DNA of 58,251 nucleotides from Bacillota bacterium (lineage in GTDB: Bacteria; Bacillota; Limnochordia; DTU080), in contig DULU01000064.1 in the NCBI GenBank assembly GCA_012840225.1, forward strand, positions 1-58,251. Direction: 5' to 3'. Of the stretch, positions 45,080 through 46,350 are shown piece by piece (within the stretch, counting starts at the first letter, position 1; every line of letters starts with the position of its first letter). The notes beneath the pieces are model-generated. The model had not been told where the DNA came from, did not search any database, and saw nothing but the letters and a program-made list of their open reading frames with translations. Position numbers and translations under genes: made by a program.

Positions 45080-45108
45080 TTGCCCGCCGATTCTCCATAT
45101 GCTACAAT
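45080..45108 (+). promoter_or_regulatory. Likely secG promoter
   Basis: TTGCCC at 45080-45085, 17-base spacer, TACAAT at 45103-45108, 48 bases before the secG start. It would give secG-smpB their own transcription, independent of the inserted pair upstream. Confidence 0.6.
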
Positions 45109-45155: not shown

Positions 45156-45377
45156 ATGATCACCTTTCTGATGATAGTGCAGTTTTTGGTGTCCCTCGCT
45201 TTGATTATTGTGGTGTTGTTGCAGAAGAGCAAAGGAGAAGGTTTGGGCTCCATCGGCGGCGGCGCGCAGATGTTCTTTGACAAGGCCAAAGGGTTTGACC
45301 GCACTTTGGAAAAAGCCACCACGGTGACGGCAGTCAGCTTCATGGTGTTGTCGGTGATCCTGGCTTTGATCATCTGA
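45156..45377 (+). CDS. secG: Preprotein translocase subunit SecG
   Basis: Small subunit of the SecYEG channel. 73 residues with two membrane helices (about 1-20 and 52-72) joined by the conserved QKSKGEGLGSIGGGAQMFF loop. ATG behind GGGGAGTGAG. In many Firmicutes the order is eno-secG-rnr-smpB; here rnr is missing and eno is 3.2 kb away. Confidence 0.95.
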   Translation: MITFLMIVQFLVSLALIIVVLLQKSKGEGLGSIGGGAQMFFDKAKGFDRTLEKATTVTAVSFMVLSVILALII

Positions 45378-45447: not shown

Positions 45448-45951
45448 ATGCGCAAACCGACCGGAAAGCCGGACGAGACAGCCAAAAACAAGATCGTATC
45501 CACCAACCGCAAAGCCAGGCATGATTATCACATCGAGAGTACCATGGAAGCCGGCTTGGTGTTGCGGGGCACGGAAGTCAAGTCCATGCGTCAGGGACGC
45601 GTTAATTTGCGGGACAGTTACGCCCGGGTGGAAAAAGACGGCGTGATCATATATGATATGCATATCGCCCCGTATGATCACGGCAACCGCTGGAATCACG
45701 AGCCCACCAGGCCCAGGCGCCTGCTCTTGCGCAAAGAGCAGATCCGCAAGCTGACAGGGCAGGTAAAGCAGGAAGGTTACACTCTGGTTCCTCTGGCAGC
45801 CTATTTTACTCCCAGAGGGCATGCCAAGTTGGAGTTGGCCTTGGCCAGGGGCAAGAAACAATGGGATAAACGCGAAGATATCAAAAAGCGTGATGCCGAC
45901 CGGGAGATAGCGAAAGCTATCCGGGGAGAAAATAAACGAGGGGGCGAGTAG
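45448..45951 (+). CDS. smpB: SsrA-binding protein SmpB
   Basis: Binds tmRNA and brings it to stalled ribosomes. NRKARHDYHIEST near the start, GLVLRGTEVKSMRQGRVNLRDSYA, HEPTRPRRLLLRK, and the basic tail KQWDKREDIKKRDADREI. 167 residues; the N-terminal 15 are an extension. The last 12 bases, including the stop, lie within the predicted mature tmRNA 5' end, so the two genes are fused at the DNA level. Confidence 0.97.
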   Translation: MRKPTGKPDETAKNKIVSTNRKARHDYHIESTMEAGLVLRGTEVKSMRQGRVNLRDSYARVEKDGVIIYDMHIAPYDHGNRWNHEPTRPRRLLLRKEQIRKLTGQVKQEGYTLVPLAAYFTPRGHAKLELALARGKKQWDKREDIKKRDADREIAKAIRGENKRGGE

Positions 45952-46300
45952 GTTCGACGGCTTGAGTACAGATGGCGTAAGCGAGTCGAGATCGCCGCGG
46001 TCTCGTTAAACAGCGGCAACGGCAACAACTGCCGACAATCAACTAGCATACGCAGCTTAATCAATTAAGCTGCCGTTCTCTTACCGGCTTGCCTGCGGCT
46101 GGGAAGAGGGCGTCATCATAGCAGGCTCGGTCGTTCTTCTGCGCCTGGGGAAGGGCACGACATAAACCGGGCTAGCCGGCGCCGGAAGCCTGTTCTTCGG
46201 CGTCCTTTGCCGGCGAACAGCCAAAAGAAGAACTGCACTCGGAGAAAGCGCCATAGGTTCCAGGTCGGACGCGGGGTGCGACTCCCCGCCGCCTCCACCA
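45940..46300 (+). ncRNA. ssrA: Transfer-messenger RNA
   Basis: Rescues stalled ribosomes and tags the unfinished protein. The 5' end GGGGGCG (45940-45946) pairs over seven positions with CGCCTCC before a discriminator A and an encoded CCA (46298-46300). The tag frame GCC GAC AAT CAA CTA GCA TAC GCA GCT TAA (46031-46060) encodes ADNQLAYAA, of the usual -LAYAA type. A perfect 9-bp hairpin (46052-46073) follows the stop. The T arm has TGCGACT instead of TTCGAAT. 361 bases. The resume codon is my choice by analogy. Confidence 0.95.
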
Positions 46301-46314
46301 ATGTCGGGAGATTG

Positions 46315-46350
46315 CGCCGCCGGTTAATTATCCGGACGGCGAATTTTTTA
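46315..46350 (+). terminator. Terminator after tmRNA
   Basis: CGCCGCCGG, loop TTAATTAT, CCGGACGGCG with one bulge, then AATTTTTTATTT. It begins 15 bases after the CCA end of the tmRNA gene. The next 300 bases up to 46657 hold no gene I can support; a TATAAT at 46605-46610 may be the -10 of the following operon. Confidence 0.85.

Follow-up and report, generated by a model that had tools for sequence, protein, structure and literature searches.

The locus analysed here raises the question of whether a protein gene and the gene for its RNA partner can share DNA and, if they do, what becomes of the protein's mRNA when the RNA is processed. The 5' end of tmRNA is produced by RNase P, and tmRNA-SmpB acts to rescue ribosomes that are translating non-stop mRNA. 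In the window (the whole stretch of DNA analysed, 58,251 nt of a Bacillota genome), the original prediction was that the smpB stop codon lies inside the tmRNA gene, ssrA, with the mature tmRNA 5' end at 45940, 12 bases before the end of smpB. This placement was confirmed by the open reading frame (45448-45951), by the covariance model match (RF00023, 45940-46300) and by the pairing of the acceptor strands.

The smpB stop codon lies within the tmRNA gene

The features that define the junction are as follows.

45448..45951, + strand: smpB coding sequence including its stop codon TAG (45949-45951); open reading frame; NCBIfam SmpB equivalogs 206.9/188 bits; PF01668 E 5e-59
45940..46300, + strand: tmRNA (ssrA) gene, mature 5' end to encoded CCA; RF00023, 154.9 bits, model complete (1-374 of 374), E 3.4e-62
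45940..45951, + strand: 12-nt overlap, smpB codons GGG GGC GAG TAG being tmRNA positions 1-12; open reading frame and RF00023; identical in relative G001
46031..46060, + strand: tmRNA tag reading frame, ADNQLAYAA and stop; sequence, with coordinates from ARAGORN on a T-loop control copy

In the window's list of open reading frames, smpB starts with ATG and encodes 167 aa; its equivalog HMM scores are above the cut-off, and the C-terminal tail that follows the DKR residues is intact. The tmRNA match (gathering score 47) has tRNA-like ends, in which a 7-bp pairing joins 45940-45946 (GGGGGCG) to 46290-46296 (CGCCUCC, one G-U pair), followed by a discriminator A and CCA. Because both the geometry of this pairing and the covariance model set it, the tmRNA 5' end was assigned to 45940. 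As is characteristic of tmRNA, small hydrophobic residues come last in the tag frame, ahead of its stop codon. The overlap comprises smpB codons 165-167 plus the stop, and the 12 shared nucleotides are the 7-nt acceptor strand and 5 more. The proposal that the last four smpB codons form the acceptor strand held for tmRNA positions 1-7, but the TAG occupies positions 10-12, at the acceptor/D-arm junction and just 3' of that strand.

An artefact, whether misassembly, a base-calling slip in the G5 run or a misplaced tmRNA end, would explain the overlap away, and it is true that a run of five Gs sits at the junction, that the genome is a 154-contig assembly and that ARAGORN makes no tmRNA call. 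We nevertheless regard this explanation as extremely improbable. The overlap is identical in G001, a genome of the same family, and ten other genomes have analogous overlaps of 8 or 13 nt, while the acceptor pairing fixes the G5 run; together, the independent genomes, unless they all carry one common error, and the pairing rule out a slip in the G run or a wrong tmRNA end. Additionally, the frame of the smpB tail in the window genome (GENKR..) agrees with that in the non-overlapping relative G002 (VKNKQ..), which argues against a frameshift artefact.

The last smpB codons also contain a perfect 6-bp stem with a GAAA tetraloop (GATAGC GAAA GCTATC, 45906-45921), with ~19 nt separating it from the tmRNA 5' end downstream. 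This hairpin was dropped as a candidate conserved signal, as G002 has no counterpart.

Detection of the tmRNA gene

ARAGORN called no tmRNA over the window. The tmRNA T-loop reads UGCGACU, not the consensus UUC form that ARAGORN recognises, which is a feature of the detection tool rather than a biological requirement, and when the loop was changed in silico to UUCGACU, ARAGORN called the tmRNA at exactly 45940-46300. The miss is therefore due to one T-loop base (G for the consensus second U), which removes the absent call as a point in favour of an artefact. Native tmRNA loci were called by ARAGORN in 7 of the 26 cases tested. The UGC T-loop was common to several missed loci among those with ends printed and also occurred in some detected ones, indicating that it is not the sole factor in the misses across loci.

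The same T-loop change is present in relatives from several families. More broadly, G in place of the consensus second U (UGCGACU or UGCAAUU, not UUC...) was observed in the window's class and in the order with 13-nt overlaps described below (window 46268-46292; relatives L082, L028, L123, L127 and L130). A standard tmRNA finder overlooks many tmRNAs of this group. Given that the 2014 survey of PMC4131195 found its tmRNAs mainly with ARAGORN and BRUCE, smpB/ssrA overlaps could be under-sampled there, and such overlaps may be under-counted.

Overlaps recur in the class and the phylum

Conservation of the overlap in relatives, which the original prediction had singled out for checking, proved to be partial. 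We surveyed 73 genomes of the window's class and read the junction in the 48 with both genes on one contig. Within the window's own family, G001 has the identical 12-nt overlap, but in G002 smpB ends 4 nt before the tmRNA. In another family, G006 and G011 share an 8-nt overlap, with the stop TGA inside GGGGGTGA, and the remaining class genomes among the 48 junctions, the majority, have no smpB/tmRNA overlap. The tmRNA start GGGGGCGAGTAGG, with the same TAG, is present in the non-overlapping genomes G002, G022, G031, G043 and G048, implying that the stop was available before the overlap formed.

To extend the survey to the phylum, we searched 399 genomes drawn evenly from it with a pattern that linked the codons for the SmpB DKR residues to a tmRNA 5' end, and obtained 69 real smpB-ssrA junctions. 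Since this pattern preselects tight spacing, the following counts are not overall frequencies: the smpB stop lay past the tmRNA start in 10 junctions (eight genomes by 13 nt, the window genome by 12 and G408 by 1) and 0 to 5 nt before it in another 45, 3 nt being the commonest gap. The eight genomes with the 13-nt overlap, in which smpB ends in ..GAI and stop and the tmRNA begins with GGGGGCGATTTAGG, belong to one family that constitutes the whole of its separate order among the genomes examined (8/8, four genera).

Two further observations concern the closest spacings. In several families, the gap between the smpB stop and the tmRNA 5' end is frequently exactly 3 nt (TAAcNt/GGGG), as if this spacing were favoured. 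In G408 (C11:1905-2001), the final G of the smpB TAG is the first G of the tmRNA, a minimal case of 1 nt.

The 12-, 8- and 13-nt overlaps use all three reading frames, which indicates at least three origins outside Carsonella. The overlap is the end of a continuum of tight smpB-ssrA spacing, seen as gaps of 0-5 nt in many relatives, and it arises easily because tmRNA 5' ends in the phylum carry TAG or TGA triplets.

Transcription signals

Around the junction, the following signals and upstream gene were found.

45080..45108, + strand: promoter-like site before secG, TTGCCC-N17-TACAAT with extended -10; score 12.7; consensus match only
45156..45377, + strand: secG, upstream gene of the presumed secG-smpB-ssrA transcription unit; TIGR00810 73.5 bits
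45629..45657, + strand: weak promoter-like site inside smpB, TGGAAA-N17-TATGAT; score 10.2, synonymous-null p 0.075; several relatives have TTGAAA-N17-TATAAT there
46306..46349, + strand: terminator-like hairpin and U run after the tmRNA; -21.3 kcal/mol, z -2.4

No terminator was found between smpB and ssrA, the terminator-like hairpin being present only after ssrA. The promoter scan covered the sigma-70/A consensus only. In most relatives whose smpB-ssrA gap measures 36-97 nt, a near-consensus sigma-A promoter (TTGACA-N17-TATTCT and similar) is present, its end lying 11-14 nt short of the tmRNA. In the overlapping genomes, the last 90 nt before the tmRNA gave promoter scores like those of shuffled sequences, except for the borderline G006 and G236, and for the window genome the idea that ssrA has a promoter of its own in these 90 nt was rejected (p 0.44). 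Most overlapping genomes lack a near-consensus promoter close to ssrA. We read the overlap as the extreme of a compact read-through architecture, with a non-stop smpB mRNA as a predicted consequence.

The original prediction had also considered that a tmRNA-specific promoter might make the two transcripts independent. This was partly borne out: some relatives have a promoter-like site inside smpB, but it is only weak in the window genome. In families f8, f5 and f4 and most of f36, TTGAAA-N17-TATAAT, TTGACA-N17-CATAAT or close variants occur ~280 nt before the tmRNA, in the smpB codons for VENGE...LYNMH. The tmRNA might accordingly derive mainly from this site, with smpB mRNA from the upstream promoter a minor species and the overlap of little consequence, a reading that we consider rather unlikely, if the most serious of the alternatives. 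In its favour, the near-consensus sites occur in several families mostly without a proximal promoter, and a synonymous-codon null gave p 0.005-0.05 in most genomes with the best-matching site. Compared with the remaining two-fold codons, those for E, Y and N at this site end in A or T at a higher rate and show less variation in f8 and f36 (P 0.002-0.01), although these tests ignore relatedness and the families were chosen after looking. Moreover, the Glu codon is conserved in the control family f13 as well, the site is weaker in the window genome and absent from G001, which has the same 12-nt overlap, and, even if this reading were true, a stop-bearing smpB mRNA would still extend into ssrA.

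Individual carriers of the intragenic sigma-A-like site were L001-L007, L011, L012, L015 and L022 (f8), L123-L125 and L129 (f36), and L008 (f5), and the site in L028 and L048 (f4) is TTGACA-N17-CATAAT. Such sites lie ~280 nt or more ahead of ssrA, and the families that have them generally lack a promoter proximal to ssrA.

Predicted fate of the smpB message

The explanation that we favour, with a probability of roughly 0.6, is a compact smpB-ssrA transcription unit in which the smpB stop codon is supplied by the tmRNA 5' region and RNase P maturation would generate a non-stop smpB mRNA. Co-transcription, cleavage, the non-stop intermediate and tagging are steps that we infer from the arrangement of the genes. 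The cleavage site would be placed as follows.

45939..45940, + strand: predicted RNase P cleavage site (CGA/GGG), between smpB codons 164 and 165; inferred from the tmRNA 5' end and the 7-bp acceptor pairing

Having no stop of its own, smpB would end at the TAG in the tmRNA 5' region, 12 nt past the RNase P site, and a stop-bearing message would have to extend into ssrA. SmpB would be translated from the nascent or unprocessed transcript; it can be made first because RNase P should cut only after ~350 more nt have been transcribed, the acceptor stem requiring the tmRNA 3' end. Once that end is made and the stem has folded, RNase P would cut at 45939/45940 and remove the last four smpB codons, leaving an mRNA that ends exactly after codon 164. 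Later ribosomes on the cut RNA would be expected to stall with an empty A site, whereupon tmRNA-SmpB would rescue them and add the tag ADNQLAYAA to SmpB(1-164). Consistent with processing by RNase P, the genome contains an RNase P RNA-like match (contig C64, 95.6 bits), just below the gathering score.

The earlier argument that RNase P cleavage would yield a non-stop smpB mRNA, and hence a tmRNA substrate, is sound given the shared DNA, although it has already been published for Carsonella (PMC4131195). The accompanying claim that one transcript cannot give both products is correct in that an RNA molecule with its smpB stop intact cannot also have the mature 5' end of tmRNA, but the limit applies to one molecule at one time. 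Three circumstances bear against the favoured explanation: tmRNA supplied mostly from the promoter inside smpB could make the relevant fraction of smpB mRNA smaller, and either another route of tmRNA 5' maturation or decay of the upstream fragment that outpaces its translation would remove the non-stop step.

If a non-stop smpB mRNA forms, trans-translation would act on the message of its own protein partner, and the original prediction proposed a feedback loop on this basis. Such a loop is conjectural, and a regulatory role is possible. In a selected version, the RNase P-made non-stop mRNA would be an autoregulatory device, which we judge unlikely. By analogy with the non-stop arfA mRNA of Escherichia coli, which is repressed by trans-translation, high tmRNA/SmpB activity would lead to tagging and destruction of new SmpB, and low activity would leave it unmarked. 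The predicted cut falls exactly between codons in the window genome and G001, which would give an ideal trans-translation substrate, every examined genome of one order keeps the overlap, and the idea was already proposed for Carsonella (PMC4131195). On the other hand, constraint on the tmRNA holds the shared sequence anyway, so that its conservation is no sign that the overlap has been selected; in the lineages with 13- or 8-nt overlaps the cut would be out of frame; and the close relative G002 has no overlap. Additionally, no ArfB was found in the window genome to release untagged SmpB when trans-translation is low; its only two RF-1-domain proteins are both of release-factor length, and ArfB backup rescue was dropped from the loop. 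An RqcH-like protein is encoded.

Less likely still is a convergent homeostatic switch, in which transcription of the tmRNA 3' end would set off an RNase P clock by which smpB mRNA loses its stop, later SmpB would be tagged in proportion to rescue capacity, and the smpB-internal promoter would supply tmRNA independently. If this were true, SmpB and tmRNA amounts would be matched through shared DNA. Returning to the compact transcription unit, we think that compaction, together with a stop already present at the tmRNA 5' end, gave rise to the overlap, and that the resulting non-stop mRNA is tolerated and perhaps useful.

Comparison with known systems

In the secG-rnr-smpB operons of Gram-positive bacteria, rnr lies between secG and smpB. 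The presumed operon described here resembles these (e.g., Streptococcus pneumoniae, PMC3534368) in that secG is included with smpB, but differs in that smpB and ssrA directly follow secG. In Helicobacter, the overlap of FtsW/RodA with tRNA-Ile (Table 4 of PMC4131195) is likewise in the same orientation, and 5' maturation of the downstream tRNA-like gene removes the stop of the coding sequence; unlike SmpB, however, the product there is unrelated to ribosome rescue. In E. coli, arfA provides a rescue-factor mRNA that lacks a stop codon, is translated and is then subject to trans-translation (PMC10107115), as predicted here for smpB, but its non-stop end is made by RNase III rather than RNase P, and ArfA is a backup rescue factor, not the partner of tmRNA itself.

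The closest precedent is Candidatus Carsonella ruddii (PMC4131195, where Mao et al. 2009 is cited on this case), in which smpB also runs into the tmRNA gene on the same strand with its stop downstream of the mature tmRNA 5' end. A non-stop smpB mRNA was expected there on tmRNA maturation, as is predicted here, and the resulting feedback situation was stated. That study found the overlap "nowhere else" among about 2,000 genomes, the passages searched of a 2025 tmRNA database paper make no mention of such overlaps, and, when the literature was searched, PMC4131195 alone was found to bear on a promoter within smpB or on RNase P as a means of smpB autoregulation. The overlap in the window is real, was correctly located and for the most part correctly reasoned about beforehand, and the concept is already published; what is new, from genome sequences, is its recurrence in ordinary-sized genomes with intact SmpB and its order-wide conservation. 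In the 2014 survey it was an oddity confined to one decaying endosymbiont (PMC4131195); this insect symbiont has an extremely reduced genome and an SmpB without the C-terminal tail and central loop, and half of its strains have the overlap. In contrast, the window genome is 3.55 Mb and encodes a full-length SmpB, and overlaps occur in three or more lineages whose genomes are of normal size and whose SmpB is intact, one of them order-wide, which makes the arrangement a natural experiment.
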